Below are positions 3,001 to 47,432 of a stretch of DNA of 64,000 bases, one piece after another; position 1 is the stretch's first letter; the number at the start of each line of letters is the position of its first letter. The translations under genes and the position numbers were made by a program. The stretch is from Cryobacterium zongtaii (lineage in GTDB: Bacteria > Actinomycetota > Actinomycetes > Actinomycetales > Microbacteriaceae), in NCBI RefSeq assembly GCF_002909375.1, contig NZ_PPXD01000022.1:1-64000 (forward strand), written 5' to 3'. The notes under the pieces are model-generated. The model made no database searches. It had not been told where the DNA came from and worked only from the letters and a program-made list of their open reading frames with translations.

Positions 3001-5941
3001 CGTCGTGCTCCTGGTCGTGGCCCTCGGCACCCTCACCGTGCTGGAAACGGCCTCGTTCGACACCTCGGCTCTGGCGGCCGGCCGCGCGATCGCCCTCGTG
3101 GGCGTTCTGGCCATCGGGCATGTGCTGGCGCTCTGGCGGCCGCAGGTGCCACTGGGCACCATCGCGGCGTGGACCTGTGCCGCCCTGGCCGGCTTCGCTG
3201 CCGGCGCCGCGCTCGTCGCCGGCACTGTGGAGCCATTCGAGCTCGTGACGGTGCCCGTCGGACTCGCTCTGGTGGCCGGTCAGCTCGTCACGGCCCGCCT
3301 CCGGGCCACGGATGGCGCCCGGCCCGCCGGAGCGTGGGCCTGGACCGGCGCCGGACTAGCGCTGGCGCTGCTGCCCAGCGCCGTCGTGGCGGCCACACCC
3401 GGTGCCACGACCCTCGGTGCCGCCGGCCTCACCGACGACGCCGTGCGCCAACTGGTCACCCTGACCCTCGGCGGCCTGCTCGCCATCGCGGGCGCCGTAC
3501 TACTGGGCCGCCCCCGGTGGAGCCTGCTCGCCTGGCCCGGCCTGCTCGTGGGAACCGCGGCCGTCGTGGTCACGGCGACCGGGCGCATCCTGGCGCTGGT
3601 GACGGCGCCGGCGGCCGGCGCCGACTGGCGCCTCGAGGCGTGGCTGCTGCCCGCGGCGCTGCTGCTGGTGGTCACCGGCGGCATCATCATCCGGCACACG
3701 CCGTTCATCGTCTCCGTTGCGACGGCTCCGACGGCGCCCCGTACCCGCACCGTGCGTCGGGGCTTCGGCTACAGCCTCGTCGGCCTGGCACTGCTCGGCA
3801 TCCTCGGCGCGGAAACTGCGGCACTGCCGTTCGGTCCGTACGCCGAGGGACGCGTGATCGCCCTGGTCGCTCTGTTCGCCGTGCTGCACGTGGCCCTTCG
3901 CTGGTTCGATCGCAGCCCCGCGGGTACCGTGCTCGCCTGGTTCAGCTGGGCCGCAGGCCTGGTCGCGCTCCTGGCCGGCCTCGGGTTCGGCCTGCCCACC
4001 CCGCTCGAACTCACCACCGGTCCGCTGGGGCTCTCCCTGATTCTCGGGCAGCTCCTGGCCGCCGGGCTTCTCGGTCCGGCGCGGAACCCGGCGTCCCTGC
4101 GGGAGTCTGCCGCCGGTCCGGTTCTGCAGGCCTGGCTGGCCGTGGGGCTCGGTCTGGTACTGCTGCCCAGTGCGGTCGAGGGTGCCCAGGGCGCCCTGCT
4201 GCGACCGGTACTGGTGCTCACCGTCGGCGGCATCCTCACGGTCGGCGGAGCCTTGCTGATCAGCCGGCCGCGCTGGCGGGTTGTGGCCTGGCCCGGCGTC
4301 CTGGTCGGTGCCGTGGCCGTCACCGTCGCCGCGTCGGGACGCATCCGGCCGCTGCTCGGCTCGCCGGCCGGCCCGGACGGCCGGCTCGAGGCCTGGCTGC
4401 TGCCGGCCGCCCTGCTGCTGATCGGCGCGGGCTACGCCATCATCGCCAGGTCCCCGGCGCTGGTACGGCCGGTTCGTGCGGATGCTGCCGTGATGGATGC
4501 CGCTGTCGCGGTGACCGTGGACCCGGCCGGTCCGCGCCGTCTGCTCGGCTACGGCCTCGTCATCGTCGCCCTCACCGGCATCCTCGGGACCGAAACCGCC
4601 GCGTTGCCCTATACGGCCTTCGCCGCGGGCCGGGTGATCGCCCTGATCGCGCTGTTCGCCGTGCTACAGGTCGTCGTGCGCTGGTTCGACCGCAGCCGCG
4701 CGGGCGTCCTGCTGGCCTGGCTGCTCGTGGCCGCCGGCTTCCTGGTGCTGGTCGCCGGTCTCGGCCGGGACCTGCTCGACCCCGTCGAGGTGGGCACCGT
4801 GCCTCTGGGGATCGCCCTGGTCGTCGGTCAGCTGATCTCGGCGCGGGTCATCGGCCGGGCGCGGGGTACCGCGTTCCCGGTCCCCTCGGCCCGTCTGGTG
4901 CAGTCCGGTCTCGTCGTGGGCCTGGCGGCGCTAGTGCTGCCCAGCGCTCTCCTCGGCGCCGAAGGCACCCCGGTGCGTGCGGTGCTCAGCCTGGCGATCG
5001 GCGGCGCCCTGGCCATCCTGGGCGCCCTGCAGACAACCCACCCACGCTGGACCCTGCTCGCCTGGCCGGCCTGCCTGGTGGGCACCCTCACCGTCCTGAC
5101 CGCCGCGGGCCTGCGGATCCTCACCCTGCCCGGAGCCCCGGCCGGACCGAGCGGCCAGCTGGAGGCCTGGCTGCTGCCGGCCGCCGCCCTCCTGGTGGCC
5201 ACCGGAACCTGCCTGGTCTGGGTTGCCCGCAGCACCGATTCCGCCGACGCCACCAGCCTGCCGCTTCGCAGTGGGTATGGCCTCGTCGTCGCGGCCCTGC
5301 TCGGCACCGTGCTCGCCGAAGTGGTCGCCCTGGGCTACCCACCGCTGGCCACGGTGCGGGTGGTGCTGGTGGTCTGGGTCTTCGCGGCGGTGTTCCTGGC
5401 CGCGTTCTGGGGCGACCGTAGCCCGCTGGGCCGGCTCATCGCGGGGACGGCCCTCGCGGGTGCCGCCGGGATGCTCGTTGCCGGCCTGTTCCACGACGTG
5501 CCGGACCCCGTCGAGATCGTCACCGTGCCGCTGGCGCTGGCGCTCGTGGCGGCCGGGCTGGTGCACCTGCGGCGGGTGCCCGCTGCGGGCAGTTGGCCCG
5601 CGCTCGCCCCCGGCCTGCTCCTCCTGCTGGTGCCGTCGCTGCTGCTCGACCTGAGCTTCAGCCCGGTCTGGCGCGTGGTGGGCCTCGGCGTGGTCGCCAT
5701 CGCGGTGCTGCTGCTCGGCACCGCGCGGCGGTTGCAGGCTCCGTTCGTGCTCGGCGCCACAGTGCTGTTGCTGCACGCGCTCGCCCAGCTCTGGCCGTGG
5801 ATCGCCCTGCTCTACGTCTCGGTGCAGTGGTGGCTCTGGCTCGGTATCGGCGGCGTGCTGTTGATCGTGCTCGCCGCGCGGTACGAGCAGCGCATCCAGA
5901 ACTTCAAGACGGCGGCGCTGAAGATCTCCGCGCTGCGCTAA
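2..5941 (+). CDS. Giant polytopic membrane protein, 5' end outside window
   Basis: The reading frame is open from base 2, so the start lies upstream; at least 1979 codons are visible. A GTG at 260 is possible but unlikely, because the preceding 85 codons continue as an Ala/Pro-rich linker. The rest is almost entirely hydrophobic helices (dozens of Leu/Ala/Val-rich segments) without a catalytic motif I can name. The C-terminal half holds four degenerate repeats of about 250 residues, each with a LEAWLLP-type motif and a following AxxRVIAL / WFDRS-type motif. Size and architecture fit the actinobacterial giant membrane proteins annotated as SCO7613 C-terminal domain-containing; function is unknown. 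It ends with a basic cytosolic tail. A strong hairpin follows the stop at 5954-5992. Confidence 0.85.
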   Translation, partial: AAPALAQASAATQAGAQTPVSVAAAAPASPTVAAPAEPAPSAQPVPPFALPGVSPAARPAAHTPPTPPSTPAPATPTGPTPHKRSSVQVVLLLVGVTLVSVAAIVFLTVAFVVAGLAVRSAIVGLFTVAMLITAGLLRRKGLVSTAEGIGALAVVLVLLDAWALRENNLFGFGAVDGLLYWGVTLTVCTALFLFWHAVSSLRVASVAGFAAAAPAVGLLAAGLAADAEPVTRVFLAALGVAAGALLHRFTRPGTASFWPAVDRTAERIALLALAALALATATLTAGFVAPAETLIPLLTFGAVAAGALAHTVVALTGRTPGALYRAFAYASASLATLAVVFGIEVFVWRTDDNTLLVTLPLLAIAALALGLELAWRRRATGPARIALLTAALTAASFVAAIGAVALATAAAPLASTLLSTFTTSGDPLVSVNEMSVWALATLTGVAVLVAGFWRAGAVLAPRLRILAWFGLVMVLLAMPFTEALWLVLPLYLLLGAAALTVLLLARAGRLTLGGYRPIVVTFFIASEALGYTVSWASSASWWLGTLSAVLTVFVARLLLNRESQAGSRGALLSGAIVLTLVGAAAAPEALTLAAPPTPAVLWLLVALAVASATGLLQLFLAQGRIGGFTAVERRAGFWTLLAPTLLGLLLPTGRIIDGLSGADRATMLPAAPVAGILAAALTAAAMLLWTLTRGGGLRWERFTGALLVAPAVLALTVNLISLTEAPGTVSVLAAPIAALLTVALALVLRTLARTTGGTTGSWARSSAGLEIGAAVVLASVFLRPGLAELGWLVLLLTAVALLLTAIDADGLFASASWRRHVGWLSLVAATAGLWWGLARAGTTPVEAYVLPLAGLLLLLAALLWRYGRIDRAVTASPGAALLTLAGLSVALLPLALSVQTGSPVRPVIVGAASAVLLIGATLVRWAPPRSAYLAATALAGALGLLSTGIARSLRLLDTAGATGPLLEAWLLPTVVITATAAFLLVRHPDARTRLARDRAAVVLLVVALGTLTVLETASFDTSALAAGRAIALVGVLAIGHVLALWRPQVPLGTIAAWTCAALAGFAAGAALVAGTVEPFELVTVPVGLALVAGQLVTARLRATDGARPAGAWAWTGAGLALALLPSAVVAATPGATTLGAAGLTDDAVRQLVTLTLGGLLAIAGAVLLGRPRWSLLAWPGLLVGTAAVVVTATGRILALVTAPAAGADWRLEAWLLPAALLLVVTGGIIIRHTPFIVSVATAPTAPRTRTVRRGFGYSLVGLALLGILGAETAALPFGPYAEGRVIALVALFAVLHVALRWFDRSPAGTVLAWFSWAAGLVALLAGLGFGLPTPLELTTGPLGLSLILGQLLAAGLLGPARNPASLRESAAGPVLQAWLAVGLGLVLLPSAVEGAQGALLRPVLVLTVGGILTVGGALLISRPRWRVVAWPGVLVGAVAVTVAASGRIRPLLGSPAGPDGRLEAWLLPAALLLIGAGYAIIARSPALVRPVRADAAVMDAAVAVTVDPAGPRRLLGYGLVIVALTGILGTETAALPYTAFAAGRVIALIALFAVLQVVVRWFDRSRAGVLLAWLLVAAGFLVLVAGLGRDLLDPVEVGTVPLGIALVVGQLISARVIGRARGTAFPVPSARLVQSGLVVGLAALVLPSALLGAEGTPVRAVLSLAIGGALAILGALQTTHPRWTLLAWPACLVGTLTVLTAAGLRILTLPGAPAGPSGQLEAWLLPAAALLVATGTCLVWVARSTDSADATSLPLRSGYGLVVAALLGTVLAEVVALGYPPLATVRVVLVVWVFAAVFLAAFWGDRSPLGRLIAGTALAGAAGMLVAGLFHDVPDPVEIVTVPLALALVAAGLVHLRRVPAAGSWPALAPGLLLLLVPSLLLDLSFSPVWRVVGLGVVAIAVLLLGTARRLQAPFVLGATVLLLHALAQLWPWIALLYVSVQWWLWLGIGGVLLIVLAARYEQRIQNFKTAALKISALR
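2897..5420 (+). repeat. Four degenerate ~250-residue internal repeats
   Basis: The LEAWLLP-coding motif recurs at about 2897, 3632, 4385 and 5159, a spacing of 735, 753 and 774 bases. Each copy is followed about 190 bases later by a segment with an ETAAL / GRVIALIALFAV-type pattern and then WFDRS or WGDRS. The middle two copies are the most alike. This points to internal duplication of a block of several membrane helices. Confidence 0.75.
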
Positions 5942-6054: not shown

Positions 6055-6690
6055 GTGCCCGAATCCAGCGCCCCCGAGTTCCTCAGCACGACCCGCCTGC
6101 GACTGGCACCTCTCGCCGCGGCCGATGTGGCCGAGGTGCACGCCGTCTACGCCGACCCGGGAACCTGGCTGCACCTGCCGACCGGCCGCCACACGGCCCT
6201 CGCACAGGCCGAGCGGATGGTCGACGAGAGCGAGCAGAGCTGGGCGGCATCCGGTTTGGGGCGCTGGGCGATTCGGTTGCGGCACGACCTGCCCGGCACT
6301 GCACTGCCCGGCACTGCACTGCCCGGCACCACCCTGGCGGCGGGAATGCTCATCGGGGTGGCCTCGGCGACGCTGATGGACTGCGGGGCGCACAACTTCG
6401 GCTACCGGCTGACCCCGGCCAGCTGGGGAATCGGACTGGCCACCGAGGCCGCGACGGTGGCCCTCGCCGCGGCGCAGGCCTCGGCGTATCCGGTGACCGC
6501 CCGCGTTCTGGCCGGCAACCCCGCCTCGGTGCGGGTGCTCGAGCGCATCGGGCTCACCCTGGTGTGGCGCGGGCAGGGGGTGGCCGGCACGGCGTCCGAC
6601 CAGCCCGCCACCGCGGCGCTCGAACGGCTCATCTTCGCGGACCGGCCCCTCAAGCCCGATCTGCTGGCCGCGATCATCAATCTCGGCTGA
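6055..6690 (+). CDS. GNAT family N-acetyltransferase (RimJ/RimL type)
   Basis: A 211-residue protein starting at GTG 6055. It opens with the TTRLRLAPL strand typical of the RimJ/RimL-like group, and ends with a GIGLATEAATVAL segment (acetyl-CoA binding motif A region) and an NPASVRVLERIGL segment (motif B region, the usual N-x-x-S-x-x-x-x-E-K/R-x-G pattern). The likely reaction is acetyl-CoA dependent transfer to an amine; the substrate cannot be read. An in-frame triple 15-bp repeat (6289-6333) inserts three LPGTx units in the middle of the fold, probably in a loop. The start is supported mainly by loss of coding character upstream. Confidence 0.8.
   Translation: MPESSAPEFLSTTRLRLAPLAAADVAEVHAVYADPGTWLHLPTGRHTALAQAERMVDESEQSWAASGLGRWAIRLRHDLPGTALPGTALPGTTLAAGMLIGVASATLMDCGAHNFGYRLTPASWGIGLATEAATVALAAAQASAYPVTARVLAGNPASVRVLERIGLTLVWRGQGVAGTASDQPATAALERLIFADRPLKPDLLAAIINLG
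6289..6333 (+). repeat. 15-bp minisatellite inside the GNAT gene
   Basis: Three tandem units of CTGCCCGGCACTGCA at 6289-6303, 6304-6318 and (diverged) 6319-6333, coding Leu-Pro-Gly-Thr-Ala/Thr. Copy-number change would stay in frame. Confidence 0.85.
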
Positions 6691-6814: not shown

Positions 6815-7051
6815 TCAGGGCTGTTCGCCGAGCTCGGTGACCTGTTGGCGGTACTGCTCGGCCGTGAGCTCGCCGCGTGCGTAGCGCTCGTCGAGGATCC
6901 GTCGGGCGTCGCTCCTGCGCGGGCCCACCGGGCCGGGCGAGTCGTCGCGGAACACCCGCACGGTCCACACAATGAGCAGCACGACCGCGCCCAGCGATAG
7001 CAACCCGTAGAGCCAGAGCCAGGCCGGGTTCATTCCGTATCCCCACATCAT
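6815..7051 (-). CDS. SHOCT-domain small membrane protein
   Basis: A 78-residue protein that begins MMWGYGMNP; this start (7051) is preferred over one 54 bases upstream because an AGGAAAGGAA-type ribosome site precedes it. Residues about 9-30 form one hydrophobic helix. The C-terminus carries the SHOCT motif (short C-terminal helix pair), seen as ARRILDERYARGELTAEQY. SHOCT proteins are thought to aid oligomerisation, but their exact role is unknown. It is divergent from the copper ATPase and shares its 94-bp upstream region with the CsoR-like operator, so a role in copper stress is a reasonable inference; the Met/Trp-rich N-terminus would suit it. Confidence 0.8.
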   Translation of the reverse strand: MMWGYGMNPAWLWLYGLLSLGAVVLLIVWTVRVFRDDSPGPVGPRRSDARRILDERYARGELTAEQYRQQVTELGEQP

Positions 7052-42603: not shown

Positions 42604-43347
42604 ATGCAACTCGACAAGAAGAGCGTCATCGTCACCGGTGGGGCCTCCGGCATCGGCGGCGCCATCACCCGCACCTTCGTGGAACGCGGTGCCAGCGTCG
42701 TCGTGGTGGATCTCGCCCGGGAGGCCGGGGAAGCCCTGGCCGCCGAGCTCGGCGACACCGTGGTGTTCCTGCAGGGCGACGTGTCCGATCCTGCCGTTGC
42801 CGAGCGGGCCGTCGGCGCAGCCGTGGATCGCTTCGGCGGGCTGCACGGACTGGTGAACAACGCGCACGCCTCGCGCCAGGCGCCCTTCCTCGAGCTCACC
42901 GAGCAGATGTGGGACCTCTCCTTTTCCACCGGGCTGCGCGCCACCATCAACTTCATGCGCGCCGCCTACCCGGAACTGAAGAAGACCACGGGATCGGTGG
43001 TGAACTTCGGCTCCGGCGCCGGCCTGGACGGTCAGCCCACCCAGGCCGCGTACGCGGCGGCGAAGGAAGCCATCCGGGGCCTCAGCCGCGTCGTCTCGAA
43101 CGAATGGGCACCAGACGGCATCCGGGTCAACGTGGTGTGCCCCATGGCGATGACCGAGGGTGTGCAGGCCTGGTCACAGGCGTTCCCCGAGCTGTACCAG
43201 TCGACCCTGGCCAAGATCCCCCTCGGTCGTTTCGGGGACCCGGGTACCGATGTCGCCCCCGCGGTCGCCTTCCTGGTTTCTGACGACTCGAATTACATCA
43301 CCGGGCAGACGCTCATGGTCGACGGTGGGACCATCAAGCTGCACTGA
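42604..43347 (+). CDS. Short-chain dehydrogenase/reductase (FabG-like)
   Basis: A 247-residue SDR with TGGASGIGGAIT (about 11-22), the Asp-containing VVDLAREAG, VNNAHAS in place of the usual NNAG, and YAAAK as the catalytic Tyr-Lys pair. FGSGAGLDG carries the Ser, and the C-terminus has the typical GQTLMVDGGT. It probably reduces or oxidises an alcohol/ketone with NAD(P). ATG 42604 lies 5 bases after the previous SDR stop; the two enzymes may act in sequence on one substrate under MarR control. Confidence 0.9.
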   Translation: MQLDKKSVIVTGGASGIGGAITRTFVERGASVVVVDLAREAGEALAAELGDTVVFLQGDVSDPAVAERAVGAAVDRFGGLHGLVNNAHASRQAPFLELTEQMWDLSFSTGLRATINFMRAAYPELKKTTGSVVNFGSGAGLDGQPTQAAYAAAKEAIRGLSRVVSNEWAPDGIRVNVVCPMAMTEGVQAWSQAFPELYQSTLAKIPLGRFGDPGTDVAPAVAFLVSDDSNYITGQTLMVDGGTIKLH

Positions 43348-43448
43348 GGCGACAGTGCTGCGTCGACGCGGACGGCGTCAATGGCACGGCGGCGCCGTCC
43401 TGGCTAGGGGCCTACCGCGGTGCGGGGTCTTCTGTCACTCTGGGCGCC

Positions 43449-43922
43449 ATGAGCATCCGAGCCCGAGTGGTGGTGGGGGTCTATCCAGGTCAGGCCGACG
43501 GCGTCGTGCTGCAGGCCGCGGTGTTCGCCGCGCGGTTCGACGCCGAGCTGGTGTGCGCCTGGGTGGACCCCGGCCGGCATCCGCGGGCCGACCACGCCGA
43601 CGCGCCCACGCCGGGTAGCGGCGCGGGCGTCGACCCGTACCTCACCGCCCACCTGACCCGGATCCTGGGCGGCCACGACATCGAGTGGAGCACCCGCCAG
43701 CTCTCCGGCGACCCGGCCAGGGCGCTCGGGCAGCTCGCCGAGACGCTCCGGGCCGTGATGATCGTGGTCGGCACCAGGGACGGCACCGTGCGCGGCAGCC
43801 TGCAGGAGTTCTTCGCGGGTTCGATCGCGATGCACCTGGCGCACCGGCAGCACCGTCCCGTCGTCGTCGTCCCCCTGTCGCCGGTGTCGTTCGACGATGA
43901 CGTGCCATGGGAGTCCGAGTGA
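43449..43922 (+). CDS. Universal stress protein family
   Basis: A 157-residue single-domain UspA-like protein. It starts VVVGVYPGQADGVVL, and the C-terminal nucleotide-binding signature is GTRDGTVRGSLQEFFAGSIA followed by HLAHRQHRPVVVVP, matching the G-x2-G-x9-G-S/T pattern of ATP-binding USPs. Function: cytosolic stress or nucleotide-binding protein of unknown target. The fluoride riboswitch starts 18 bases after its stop, so it is not under the switch but may read through into it. Confidence 0.85.
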   Translation: MSIRARVVVGVYPGQADGVVLQAAVFAARFDAELVCAWVDPGRHPRADHADAPTPGSGAGVDPYLTAHLTRILGGHDIEWSTRQLSGDPARALGQLAETLRAVMIVVGTRDGTVRGSLQEFFAGSIAMHLAHRQHRPVVVVPLSPVSFDDDVPWESE

Positions 43923-43939
43923 GCGGTGTACCCTTTTGC

Positions 43940-43999
43940 GTGGTGATGGATCCCACCTGAGCACCCGCTCGAACCGCCGACTGCGCTGATGGTTCCGGC
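43940..43999 (+). ncRNA. Fluoride riboswitch (crcB motif)
   Basis: GGTG (43942-43945) and CACC (43954-43957) form the first stem around ATGGATCC; CGCTGATGG (43984-43992) supplies the conserved CUGAUGG, and GGTTCC (43991-43996) can pair with GGATCC in the first loop (one mismatch) as the required pseudoknot. A TACCCT -10-like box (43929-43934) would start RNA near 43941. The position upstream of a gpm-crcB-crcB operon matches the class. Fluoride binding would switch the operon on. Confidence 0.85.
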
Positions 44000-44014
44000 C
44001 GACGAGACTGGTGG

Positions 44015-44761
44015 GTGACGGTGACGAGCTGGCCGAGCGGTGCTTCACTCGTCCTGCTCCGCCACGGCCAGAGCACCGCGAACGCCGCCGGCCTCTTCAC
44101 CGGCATCCTCGACCCCGAGCTGTCACCGTCCGGCGCCGACGAGGCGCTGGCCGCCGCCGACCTGCTCACGGCGCACGACCTGGTCCCGGATGCCGTCCTC
44201 GTCTCCCCGCTGCAGCGCGCCAGGCAGACCAGTGCCATCGTGGCCACCGCGCTGGAGTTGCCGGCCGACGCTGTCCACACCGACTGGCGTTTGAACGAAC
44301 GCAACTACGGCGCCCTCACCGGACGGTACAAGGACGATGTGCGCGCCGAGGTCGGCGAGGCCCAGTTCCTGGCCTGGCGCCGCTCGGTCGACACCGCGCC
44401 GCCGGCCATGTCCGACGAGCAGCTTGGCGGCTTCGCCGACACGGCCCTGTTCCGTGGCCTGCCCGCCCGGGCGCTCACCCGCAGCGAGTCGTTACGTGAC
44501 GTGATGGCCCGGGTGGCCGAGATCCATACCGATCGGGTGCTGCCGCTCCTGGCGGATGAGCGCACCGTGCTGGTCGTGGCGCACGGCAACTCCCTCCGCG
44601 CGTATTGCGCCGTGCTCGAGACCCTCGACAAATCGGCCATCCACCGACTCAATCTGCCCACCGGGCATCCGCTGGTCTACCAGGCCGGCGGCCGGCGGTA
44701 CCTCGACGCCCCACGTGCCGAGGCGGCCGCGCTCGCCCTCGCCCTCGACGGCGGCACCTGA
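44015..44761 (+). CDS. gpmA: 2,3-bisphosphoglycerate-dependent phosphoglycerate mutase-like
   Basis: A 248-residue histidine phosphatase superfamily enzyme. LLRHGQSTAN (His17, the phosphorylated residue), LNERNYGALTG (near 93-103) and VVAHGNSLRA (second His) match dPGM and distinguish it from simple phosphatases, where the RNYGALTG block is absent. It would interconvert 3- and 2-phosphoglycerate. It is the first gene after the fluoride riboswitch and overlaps crcB (TGATG). Enolase, the next glycolytic step, is a known fluoride target, so an extra mutase here may relieve fluoride stress; that role is inferred. Confidence 0.85.
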   Translation: MTVTSWPSGASLVLLRHGQSTANAAGLFTGILDPELSPSGADEALAAADLLTAHDLVPDAVLVSPLQRARQTSAIVATALELPADAVHTDWRLNERNYGALTGRYKDDVRAEVGEAQFLAWRRSVDTAPPAMSDEQLGGFADTALFRGLPARALTRSESLRDVMARVAEIHTDRVLPLLADERTVLVVAHGNSLRAYCAVLETLDKSAIHRLNLPTGHPLVYQAGGRRYLDAPRAEAAALALALDGGT

Positions 44762-45219
44762 TGGCAGTCCCGACCGGCGCGTCGCGCCCCGTACACCTGC
44801 GCTGGCCGCACCTCGCCCTCGTCTTCGCCGGCGGCACCGTCGGCACCGCGCTGCGCGAGCTCTTGGCGATCTCGGTGCCGCCGGTCGCGGGGGTGGCTGT
44901 CGTGATCGTGGGCATCAACATCGTCGGCGCCTTCGTGCTCGGGCTGCTGCTGGAGACCCTGGCCCGCCGCGGCCCAGACGAAGGCCGACGCCGGCAGCTG
45001 CGGCTGCTGCTGGGCACCGGCGTGCTCGGCGGCTTCACCACCTACAGCGCCCTGGCCACCGACACCGGCCTGTTGCTGGCCGACAGTCGACTCGGCGCCG
45101 CCCTGCTCTACGCGCTGGGCACGGTTCTGATCGGCGCGGTCGCCTCGTGGGCCGGGATCGGCGCGGCCGGGGCGCTGCACGGCCGGCGGCCGAATCGTAG
45201 CGGGACGGCGGCCCGATGA
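44761..45219 (+). CDS. crcB: Fluoride exporter CrcB/Fluc, subunit 1
   Basis: A 152-residue membrane protein with four helices. FAGGTVGTALREL, the N-containing INIVGAFVLGLLLE and GVLGGFTTYSALATDT are the Fluc signatures (the Asn, Phe and Thr line the fluoride pores). Two CrcB genes in a row suggest a heterodimeric double-barrelled channel. The ATG overlaps the gpm stop, and the next crcB overlaps its stop. The C-terminus is a basic tail. Confidence 0.93.
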   Translation: MAVPTGASRPVHLRWPHLALVFAGGTVGTALRELLAISVPPVAGVAVVIVGINIVGAFVLGLLLETLARRGPDEGRRRQLRLLLGTGVLGGFTTYSALATDTGLLLADSRLGAALLYALGTVLIGAVASWAGIGAAGALHGRRPNRSGTAAR

Positions 45220-45593
45220 CCCCGCTGCTCTTTGTCGCCGTGGCGCTGGCCGGCGGTCTCGGCGCGACCCTGCGGCTGGTCCTCGACGGCGTCGTGAAGT
45301 CCAGGGTGCGCACCACGCTGCCGGTCGGCACCCTGCTCATCAACGTGGTCGGCTCCCTGCTGCTGGGACTCATCACCGGCCTCACCCTGGCGCTGTGGTT
45401 GCCGGAGGCCTGGCACCTGGTACTCGGCGGCGGCCTGCTGGGCGGTTTCACCACCTTCAGCACCGCCAGCTACGAGACCGTGCGGCTGGCGCAGGACCGG
45501 CGGTCCCTTCCGGCGCTCGTCAACGGGCTCGGGATGCTCGCGCTCGCGGTGGGCTGCGCCTTCCTGGGCCTCTGGCTGGGCCTGGGCGGGTAG
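45216..45593 (+). CDS. crcB: Fluoride exporter CrcB/Fluc, subunit 2
   Basis: A 125-residue four-helix Fluc protein: LGATLRLVLDGVV, INVVGSLLLGLITG and GGGLLGGFTTFSTASYETV carry the conserved Asn, Gly and Phe-Thr-Thr-Phe-Ser residues. It pairs with the preceding subunit to form the fluoride channel that lets F- leave the cell. The ATG overlaps the first crcB stop (ATGA). The gene is convergent with the MarR gene, only 12 bases away, so transcripts may collide. Confidence 0.94.
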   Translation: MTPLLFVAVALAGGLGATLRLVLDGVVKSRVRTTLPVGTLLINVVGSLLLGLITGLTLALWLPEAWHLVLGGGLLGGFTTFSTASYETVRLAQDRRSLPALVNGLGMLALAVGCAFLGLWLGLGG

Positions 45594-45605
45594 CCCAGCG
45601 CGAGG

Positions 45606-46100
45606 TCAGATCGACTCGTTGTGCCTGGCCACCGCATCGGTCACCCAGGAGAGCTCGTCGACGAAACGACCGAGCAACCGGGCCAACTCGGTGCGGTCCA
45701 CTTCAGTCCACTTGCCGACCAGGGTTCCGTACACGTCCTGGGCGAGCTGGCGGTGCCGGGCGATAGCGGTACGCCCCTCTTCCGTCGCGGTGATGAGCAC
45801 GCCCCGCCGATCGGTCGGATCGGATCGCCGACTCACCAGTCCGGATTTCTCCAGCCGCCGGATCTCGGTGGTCATGGTGGACTTGTCCACCGCCATCCAG
45901 CCCGCGAGCTTCGACATCCGCAGCGGCCCGGCGACGACGACGCGTTCCAGCAACCAGGAGTCCGTGCTGGAGAGGGCGGCACCGCTCGAATCGTGCAGCA
46001 TCCGTTTATTGTCGGCGCGCGTCGACCAGCGAAGGATGGTCGACAGGGCCGATTCCAGAGCCTCACCGACCGTTGGAGCGGTTTCCCGGCTGTACACCAT
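45606..46100 (-). CDS. MarR-family regulator divergent from terC
   Basis: A 164-residue winged-helix regulator: helix-turn-helix around LRMSKLAGWMAVDKSTMTTEIRRL, wing RRSDPTDRRGVLITATEEG. The start ATG 46100 is preferred (AGGAAA 9 bases upstream); an ATG at 46154 would lie inside the operator palindrome. It is divergent from terC, and two TTGG/CCAA palindromes (46139-46156, 46199-46214) lie between them, so it probably represses both. The inducer is unknown. Confidence 0.87.
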   Translation of the reverse strand: MVYSRETAPTVGEALESALSTILRWSTRADNKRMLHDSSGAALSSTDSWLLERVVVAGPLRMSKLAGWMAVDKSTMTTEIRRLEKSGLVSRRSDPTDRRGVLITATEEGRTAIARHRQLAQDVYGTLVGKWTEVDRTELARLLGRFVDELSWVTDAVARHNESI

Positions 46101-46138
46101 GGCTGAAAGTTTCCTGACTTTTCGGAGGCTGTGCGAAT

Positions 46139-46156
46139 AGTTGGACGGATCCAACT
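46139..46156. promoter_or_regulatory. Palindromic operator 1, marR-terC region
   Basis: AGTTGGA (46139-46145) and TCCAACT (46150-46156) are perfect arms around CGGA, just upstream of the MarR start. Confidence 0.65.
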
Positions 46157-46198
46157 AACATAGTGGAGCTACCTTACCTTTCGGTTGGGATGCGAATG

Positions 46199-46214
46199 GT
46201 TGGGCGACCCCAAC
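46199..46214. promoter_or_regulatory. Palindromic operator 2, marR-terC region
   Basis: GTTGGG (46199-46204) and CCCAAC (46209-46214) around CGAC, 37 bases before the terC start. The half-site resembles that of operator 1; centres are 59 bp apart. Confidence 0.6.
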
Positions 46215-46250
46215 TTAATCACACCACTACCCCCGCGGAGAACACCACCC

Positions 46251-47432
46251 ATGGACATACCCGGCTACGTCTGGCTCCTCACGATCCTCGGCATCGTCGC
46301 CCTGCTCACCTTCGACTTCTTCTTCCACGTGCGCAAGGCTCACGAGCCGACCCTCCCCGAGGCCGCCAAGTGGTCCGCCATCTATGTGGGCATCGCGATC
46401 GCCTTCGGACTCGGTGTTCTCTTTTTCGGCGGCGGCACGCTCGGTACCGAGTACTTCGCGGGCTACATCACCGAGAAGGCGCTGTCGGTCGACAACCTCT
46501 TCGTCTTCCTCATCATCATGGCCAGCTTCAAGGTGCCTCGCGCCGACCAGCAGAAGGTGCTCCTCTTCGGCATCGTCTTCGCGCTGATCGCCCGCACCGG
46601 GTTCATCTTCCTCGGCGCGGCGCTGATCAACTCGTTCGCCTGGCTGTTCTACCTGTTCGGCGCATTCCTCATCTACACCGCGGTCAAGCTGCTGAAGCCC
46701 GAAGCCGAGAGCGACGAGGCCGACAACTTCATCATCCGGCTGGCGAAGCGCCTGTTCCACACCACCGAGCGGTACGACGGCGACAAGCTCTTCACCAGGG
46801 AGAACGGCAAGAAGGTCATGACGCCGATGCTTCTCGTCATGGTCGCCATCGGTGGCACCGACCTCCTGTTCGCGCTGGACTCCGTGCCCGCGATCTTCGG
46901 CCTCACCCAGAACGTCTACATCGTCTTCACCGCGACGGCGTTCTCGCTCATGGGCCTCCGCCAGCTCTACTTCCTCATCGACGGCCTGCTCGACCGCCTG
47001 ATCTACCTCAGCTACGGCCTGGCCGCGATCCTCGGCTTCATCGGCATCAAGCTCGTACTGCACGCCCTGCACGAGAACACGCTGCCGTTCATCAACGGCG
47101 GCGAGCACGTCCCGGTCTTCGAGATCAGCACCGGCGTCTCGCTCGCCGTGATCATCGGTGTTCTCACGGTCACAGTCATCGCTTCGCTCGTCAGCCCGGC
47201 CGGCCGCGCGCACAGCGCGATCGCGCTCAGCAAGGCTTCGGCCAAGAAGTACCTGACCGGCGACTTCAGCGGCAAGGGTGAGACGCGCGACGAAACCTAC
47301 GCTCTCGTCGTCGCCCACGAACGCGCCCTGGGCCTGCTCACCCCCAAGCACCGGGCTCGTGCCGCCGAAGACGAAGAGCTGCAGGCGCTGCTGGCCGAGG
47401 CGCACAACGCCCACGCCGGCGTCGCGAAGTAG
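46251..47432 (+). CDS. terC: TerC family integral membrane protein
   Basis: A 393-residue polytopic membrane protein of the TerC/Alx family. Signature segments: ITEKALSVDNLFVFLIIM (acidic helix near 76-93), IGGTDLLFALDSVPAIFGLTQN (split by the family's Asp-Ser-Val-Pro motif) and LMGLRQLYFLIDGLLDRLIYL. It belongs to the tellurium/stress resistance system and has been linked to Mn2+ transport and to the metallation of exported proteins in other bacteria. A 50-residue acidic C-terminal tail is probably cytosolic. ATG 46251 follows CGGAGAAC. A strong terminator separates it from terD. Confidence 0.93.
   Translation: MDIPGYVWLLTILGIVALLTFDFFFHVRKAHEPTLPEAAKWSAIYVGIAIAFGLGVLFFGGGTLGTEYFAGYITEKALSVDNLFVFLIIMASFKVPRADQQKVLLFGIVFALIARTGFIFLGAALINSFAWLFYLFGAFLIYTAVKLLKPEAESDEADNFIIRLAKRLFHTTERYDGDKLFTRENGKKVMTPMLLVMVAIGGTDLLFALDSVPAIFGLTQNVYIVFTATAFSLMGLRQLYFLIDGLLDRLIYLSYGLAAILGFIGIKLVLHALHENTLPFINGGEHVPVFEISTGVSLAVIIGVLTVTVIASLVSPAGRAHSAIALSKASAKKYLTGDFSGKGETRDETYALVVAHERALGLLTPKHRARAAEDEELQALLAEAHNAHAGVAK

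Follow-up and report, generated by a model that had tools for sequence, protein, structure and literature searches.

A gpm-crcB-crcB operon behind a truncated fluoride-type leader in Cryobacterium zongtaii, and a likely variant fluoride aptamer in its relatives

The window, that is the whole stretch of 64,000 nucleotides of the Cryobacterium zongtaii contig NZ_PPXD01000022.1 that was analyzed, carries a leader with a fluoride-type aptamer core, directly followed by a paralogue of phosphoglycerate mutase (gpm) and two crcB genes, with a universal stress protein gene (usp) upstream. The features of this locus, in window positions, are the following.

43449..43922, plus strand: usp, universal stress protein, whose gene stops 19 bases short of the aptamer (Pfam Usp 56.2 bits, cut-off 24)
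43925..43937, plus strand: conserved GGTGTACCCTTTT block directly before the aptamer, probable -10 region
43942..43996, plus strand: fluoride-type aptamer core (RF01734 score, pair counts in alignment A1, identity to the cores of loci L088 and L121)
43942-43945/43954-43957, plus strand: P1 of the aptamer
43948-43953/43991-43996, plus strand: pseudoknot of the aptamer
43959-43962/43967-43970, plus strand: hairpin inserted between P1 and P2
43976-43977/43985-43986, plus strand: P2 of the aptamer
43996..43997, plus strand: junction of a 27-base deletion relative to intact sisters (leader alignment and base check)
44010..44018, plus strand: Shine-Dalgarno-like (SD) GGTGGGTGA, from the sequence
44021..44761, plus strand: gpm paralogue, dPGM-type phosphoglycerate mutase of 246 aa with a GTG start at 44021 (His_Phos_1, TIGR01258)
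44761..45219, plus strand: crcB1, Fluc subunit (Pfam CRCB 69.6 bits, cut-off 32.9)
45216..45593, plus strand: crcB2, Fluc subunit (Pfam CRCB 82.4 bits, cut-off 32.9)

An alternative start of gpm lies at 44015. Beyond crcB2, a MarR-family regulator (45606-46154, minus strand) is divergent from a TerC/Alx-family gene (46185-47432, plus strand).

The sequence-only reading had described the leader as a crcB-class fluoride motif with a pseudoknot, to be checked by a covariance search. At curated thresholds, Rfam returned no match of any family in the whole window, and the gathering score of RF01734, 34 bits, was not reached. Below that cut-off the search was positive, RF01734 being the top-scoring Rfam match of a 301-base local stretch (22.2 bits, E 0.00041), covering model positions 10-55 of 64. 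No other site in the 4.05-Mb genome matches RF01734 as well (E 0.0013; next 0.121), and the 55-base core is identical to those of the sister genomes G007 (L088) and G446 (L121), whose longer leaders score 34.3 and 35.1 bits. Eight of the nine sister loci given to Rfam pass the cut-off (34.3-44.9 bits); the ninth, G011 (L017), gave no RF01734 match.

We aligned 20 aptamers, window included, in 19 distinct rows (alignment A1), leaving out L094, in which P1 had been cut wrongly, and the near-copies L084 and L121. Across P1, P2, the inserted hairpin and the pseudoknot, 94.2% of cells form pairs, against 19.5-56.0% in slid controls. Five pairs are changed on both sides, against a shuffled mean of 1.3 (0 of 500 shuffles as high), and compensatory changes are present in the pseudoknot as well as in the extra P1-P2 hairpin. 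The pseudoknot is imperfect, one of its six positions being non-standard in 17 of the 19 distinct rows (U-U in the window). The P1, P2 and pseudoknot core of RF01734 is present in the window element, with conserved and covarying pairs and this one pseudoknot position unpaired. The described motif was borne out by the sub-threshold match, by sisters above the cut-off at the same position and by the covariation. The same points, together with the rank of the site in its genome and its place adjoining crcB, make it extremely improbable that the motif is a chance match in an operon without any fluoride RNA, a view that the score under the gathering threshold would favor and that the leaders of the sisters contradict. 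We regard the leader as a fluoride-type aptamer, with fluoride as its presumed ligand.

Compared with the B. cereus and T. petrophila types of RF01734, as presented in text passages of PMC8004769 and PMC11077080, the window element shares P1, P2, the pseudoknot, the AUGG loop and the UGAUG joining strand, but has an extra P1-P2 hairpin, a U-U in the pseudoknot and no linchpin U; probable SD sequestration takes the place of their terminator platforms. In passages of PMC11077080, the linchpin is the pair A40-U48, whose opening lets the expression platform invade, and mutation of the neighboring U41 (U41A) abolishes the fluoride response; in B. cereus numbering the linchpin is A37-U45 (PMC8004769, in part).

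To the leader of the window we aligned those of eight intact sisters and of G011, ten in all. In 8 of the 10, a stretch beginning TACCGACTT lies between GGTTCC and GGCCGA...GGTGGGT. Relative to its nearest sister, the window (one assembly) is without 27 bases directly 3' of the pseudoknot strand, and this deletion accounts for the sub-cut-off Rfam score of its aptamer. The base after GGTTCC is U in all eight intact sisters and G (43997) in the window. The A of the linchpin is kept at 43989; with U48 placed by our alignment at the base after the pseudoknot strand, the pair is not possible. For this reason the window element, judged by its sequence, is a descendant of the RF01734 family and not an intact member. 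The deletion takes, together with the linchpin uracil, the strand that pairs with the SD in 6 of the 8 intact sisters. In G011 (L017, about 1450-1510) the whole aptamer is gone; gpm, the two crcB genes, the SD and the promoter block remain. GGTGTA(C/G)CCTTTT is found in all ten leaders, including that of aptamer-less G011, and the GGTGTACCCTTTT block is a probable -10 region; a consensus scan found no sigma-70 site. These leaders form a natural set for testing the loss of a fluoride riboswitch, with intact forms (8 sisters), a deletion of platform and linchpin (the window) and complete loss (G011), with near-identical aptamer cores and all over the conserved gpm-crcB-crcB operon.

Local folds predict that the SD is paired with the first 12 bases from GGUUCC on in 6 of the 8 intact sisters (probability 0.73-1.00). 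In the other two, G335 and G023, the SD next to the start pairs with the pseudoknot strand at 0.00, and in G023 the SD is duplicated and 0.95 unpaired. The local fold of the window reaches -9.4 kcal/mol, far weaker than the -21.2 to -31.8 kcal/mol of the sisters, with the SD paired with the first 12 bases at 0.61 and unpaired at 0.28, and the pseudoknot strand involved at 0.70. In full-leader folds, access to the SD was 0.29 in the window, compared with 0.31 in G023 and 0.00-0.17 in the seven other sisters. With the aptamer forced, access rose modestly in the window, from 0.29 to 0.38, stayed at 0.17 in G335 and went from 0.00-0.31 to 0.18-0.50 in the other gpm-type sisters; among nine crcB-type leaders it went up in six (two by 0.01-0.02), down in two (G013, G018) and stayed the same in one. 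Taken alone, this folding is not decisive for an impaired switch.

Two other platforms were considered and rejected. A consensus scan of 43300-45700, weak in that shuffles give 0.3, found no terminator-like site, and a terminator platform was discarded. The P1 strand CCCACC is complementary to GGTGGG, making a substitute platform possible in the window. As a general anti-SD it was set aside, as it fits GGTGGG in gpm-type leaders only, most non-gpm relatives having CCCGCC with no SD fit; the pseudoknot strand was preferred as anti-SD because more leaders fit it.

We propose that a translational ON-switch responding to fluoride governed the ancestral gpm-crcB-crcB operon. Without fluoride, the GGUUCC pseudoknot strand and the following UACC would pair with the SD in most intact sister leaders. 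Fluoride and Mg would then lock GGUUCC in the aptamer pseudoknot, held by the A40-U48 linchpin, and the ribosome site would be freed. In the window, the 27-base deletion would have taken the linchpin uracil and the UACC of the anti-SD strand and left the aptamer core, with the coupling of aptamer and translation weakened or lost and expression leaky or constant. On the combined sequence and folding comparison, the ancestral device was probably a translational ON-switch, and the window copy is probably impaired. Of the earlier proposal that a riboswitch controls the operon, the fluoride-type aptamer stands; working control is doubtful in the window, because the linchpin uracil and the strand after it, found in all eight intact sisters, are deleted. 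We judge it unlikely that the switch still works, with the core binding fluoride and either a shortened SD hairpin (GGTTCC/GGCC with GGTGGGTGA) or CCCACC acting as anti-SD. Such a switch would be in line with a core identical to that of two sisters with Rfam-passing leaders and with a local fold that still engages the pseudoknot strand and the SD, but it has to accommodate a G in place of the linchpin U, a much weaker local fold than in the sisters, and the deletion of UCCUAC, a stretch that is in the Rfam consensus and in all eight intact sisters. Weakened or lost switching in the window is what we consider probable.

The two crcB genes had been suggested to encode a heterodimeric channel, and their charge patterns fit this. 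With loop borders set by eye, CrcB1 has six K+R in loop 2-3 and one in loop 1-2, with positive charges also at its ends, and CrcB2 has none in loop 2-3 and four and three in loops 1-2 and 3-4. These opposite patterns are as expected, at the sequence level, of an inverted heterodimer, and CrcB1 and CrcB2 would assemble into an inverted heterodimeric channel letting fluoride out. Neither protein reached a cut-off among the NCBIfam CrcB models shown (TIGR00494: 66.3 and 79.8 against 80.45). All 37 genus genomes searched gave two CRCB places each. Heterodimeric Fluc channels are said, in passages of PMC11139923, to be commoner than homodimers in Gram-positive bacteria. The window pair resembles those described there in its two adjacent genes and complementary charges, and differs in following a gpm paralogue.

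The gpm of the operon scores 188.9 bits with TIGR01258 (cut-off 81.7), and no NCBIfam equivalog cut-off was reached. A separate housekeeping gpm scores 367.8 bits on contig C19, against 188.3 bits for the operon copy in the same genome search. The operon gene is then a second copy, as the sequence-only reading needed, and the idea that it is the only gpm was rejected. The paralogue keeps the motifs RHG, FTG, R62, ER.Y, K100, RR and HGN, where the numbers of R62, E89 and K100 are presumably those of E. coli, and it belongs with the 2,3-BPG-dependent phosphoglycerate mutases (TIGR01258; PDB 1rii) in family and catalytic motifs. It differs from them in its separate clade, in having ERNY where 13 of 14 housekeeping-type rows have ERHY, and in its identity of about 41-45% to housekeeping copies. 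In the tree the close paralogues form their own clade (10 rows, support 100/99; stem branch 1.34), apart from 13 of the 14 housekeeping-type rows; L033, labeled housekeeping, falls on the paralogue side with a long branch that the program flagged as unsure. L024 was excluded from the tree because its readable part was too short, and the row of L120 is filled to 37%. Between the window and the sister G446, dN is 0.060 and dS 0.222, so the paralogue is under purifying selection.

Its long stem branch, its ERNY motif and the presence of phosphatases in the superfamily leave room for the paralogue to be a phosphatase that clears a phospho-metabolite accumulating when enolase is blocked. We hold this to be improbable, as the other checked motifs are kept and the best solved relative is the mutase 1rii (154 bits), the best named phosphatase reaching 38.8 bits. 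As a mutase, the paralogue would supply extra 3-PG to 2-PG activity while enolase is inhibited, a presumed benefit under fluoride that fits a fluoride-stress glycolysis module. The earlier suggestion was that fluoride, by blocking enolase, unbalances phosphoglycerate pools; the company of eno and ppa in relatives fits the replacing or boosting of fluoride-sensitive steps at least as well. For the explanation as a whole, namely a fluoride operon whose ancestral translational ON-switch is impaired in the window, with a heterodimeric channel and support from a mutase, we estimate a probability of about 0.62.

A gpm in a fluoride operon has a precedent. As described in passages of PMC5533749, the fluoride-induced operon of Enterobacter cloacae FRM is ppaC-uspA-eno-gpmA-crcB-orf5249, and its authors propose that it provides extra copies of fluoride-inhibited enzymes, inhibition of the mutase not having been reported previously. 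That operon and the window have in common a fluoride riboswitch leader, crcB, gpm and usp; in relatives of the window operon, ppa and eno join this set. On the same passages, the Enterobacter operon has one crcB, a riboswitch before ppaC and measured induction, whereas the window has two crcB genes, a usp upstream of the aptamer and a truncated leader.

Within the genus, 37 genomes were searched for the mutase. It was found at an identity of at least 77% in eight of them, and two more cases came from the family search (L121, L122); in all ten genomes with the close paralogue, gpm-crcB-crcB are directly adjacent. Nine further genus genomes have mutase copies at 62-66% identity, and no crcB match was found in the 11-13 kb around these copies in three loci (L133-L135). 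Among the 29 genus genomes without the close paralogue, 10 have an RF01734 match (E < 1e-4) directly before crcB-crcB (G001, G010, G013, G015, G016, G017, G018, G020, G035, G036). Relatives also gave RF01734 hits under the threshold at places away from crcB. The usp gene precedes gpm also in L121, L122, L139 and L140 and, in other genera, in L124 and L128-L132.

The blocks of these other genera are larger. L128, L129, L130 and L132 carry usp-gpm-crcB-crcB-ppa-eno, and L124 carries usp-gpm-eno-crcB-crcB. The repeated co-occurrence of usp, gpm, crcB-crcB, ppa and eno across other genera, and in the Enterobacter operon, places the window operon within an established type of fluoride defense and suggests which enzymes fluoride may make limiting. 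The usp-gpm-crcB-crcB-ppa-eno blocks of two different genera (L130:574-7634 and L131:787-7847) are 99.8% identical over 7061 bases, L130 also matches the short loci L116, L118 and L119 over about 2.96 kb at 99.8-99.9% identity, and the five mutase proteins of L115-L119 are identical in the tree. Near-identical blocks across genera and identical mutases indicate recent transfer, and by sequence the 7-kb block of L130 and L131 is probably a recently transferred fluoride cassette.

At five block loci of other genera, no Rfam RNA was found at E <= 0.1 and our model R1 reached at best E 0.19, and on a first reading these blocks had no leader RNA. Reading their sequences overturned this by revealing a variant aptamer, with the P1 loop GUGGGGCU and the joining strand CAACAGUCCCU, ahead of usp, crcB, gpm or eno at the following places.

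L124, 5682-5737: variant aptamer
L129, 5441-5496: variant aptamer
L170, 3122-3177: variant aptamer
L128, 7467-7522, minus strand: variant aptamer
L130, 7464-7519, minus strand: variant aptamer
L190-L219: variant aptamer

In the variant, the position pair 6/38 is G/C and position 41 is C, where the classical form has A/U and U. In the literature covered, as search results and text passages, we found no description of a GUGGGGCU/CAACAG variant.

A model, R2, was built from six variant leaders (seed A4); L125, L137 and L047 were excluded from the seed on account of a differing joining strand or P2 length, and R2 recovered all three (the last as L094). Among 398 genomes of the family, R2 found 54 at E <= 0.001, and in 50 of these the best score was at least 35 bits. 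RF01734 found 24 of the same 398 at E <= 0.001 and 18 over its cut-off, in a comparison that is uneven because the training leaders of R2 came from this group; G067, G324 and G424 were found by both models. In an order sample of 198 genomes, R2 found 11 at E <= 0.0001. Weak R1 matches were left unused, many of its 90 genomes at E <= 0.01 having a best score below 30 bits. At the Rfam threshold none of 18 variant loci had a fluoride match, and six variant loci had none up to E 10. A single-family search of genomes with RF01734 did register the variant places of G053 and G052, at a sub-threshold 22.9 bits, so that model is not entirely blind to the variant. Surveys and libraries based on Rfam, for instance the 2358 sequences of PMC13273304 as its text gives them, probably omit such variant switches.

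The variant rows were fitted to the R2 structure (A5; 32 rows, 28 distinct), a procedure favoring P1 and P2 and not the pseudoknot or the pair 6-38. In A5, 97.7% of cells pair and 8 pairs show changes on both sides, a count that none of 500 shuffles reached (mean 3.5), with one P1 pair failing in 11 of the 28 rows. We take the position pair 6-38 to be the crystal structure's reversed Watson-Crick pair; 27 distinct rows have G-C there, and the single row with A-U has a classical-like loop. One reversed Watson-Crick pair exists in the fluoride aptamer according to passages of PMC8004769. The classical set has A at 6 in all 20 rows and U at 38 in 19; in the remaining row (L092), an insertion causes a shift. 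A U follows the pseudoknot strand in 32 of 32 A5 rows.

Downstream of the variant, on the same strand, usp, gpm, crcB or eno was found in 29 of 30 loci, a count that includes several near-copies (L217 had none; L197 and L203 were started at a default place, the pattern not being found in the part searched). In the order sample, both crcB genes were present in 10 of 13 loci; no crcB was found in L227 and L230, and L232 has a MutS-like gene. When 17 variant loci were folded, the strand after the pseudoknot (e.g., CCCUAUCUC) paired, by eye, with the SD strand (e.g., GAGAUAGGAG). We consider it likely that this variant fluoride aptamer, built as an SD-sequestering translational ON-switch, governs relatives of the operon within the family as well as crcB pairs of further families in the order, and that the window operon belongs to a branch that has the classical aptamer and is losing it. 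In the family sample, the genomes with the variant were about twice as many as those with RF01734 matches. The variant is a more novel result than the window operon itself, and it would extend the known sequence space of the fluoride-binding core if it binds fluoride.

Classical aptamers in the family also adjoin eno, ppa, MutS-like, NADH-dehydrogenase-like and transporter genes; the 20 proteins scanned beside them include an AraC-type regulator and one protein without a Pfam match. These associations agree with ones named in passages of PMC2864571 and PMC11139923.

Several further arrangements were observed. L170 (G424) has its variant aptamer (3122-3177) before usp and a classical-type one (3806-3860) before eno-crcB-crcB. 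In L126 (G273), a classical-type aptamer (6927-6980, minus strand; R1 40.4 bits) lies about 35 bases before gpm, with no crcB match in the 13 kb covered. Divergent pairs of fluoride aptamers, 86-133 bases apart, are found in L136 (G021), L172 and L173 (G237) and L174 and L175 (G284), flanked in L136 and L172 by ppa and, on the opposite side, a MutS-like gene; G237 and G284 have seven RF01734 places each. L125 (G067, C1:231000-245000) is a dense fluoride island with four R2 matches and one strong R1 match in 14 kb, and one of its R2 matches (6461-6515) stands directly before a gpm at 6588.
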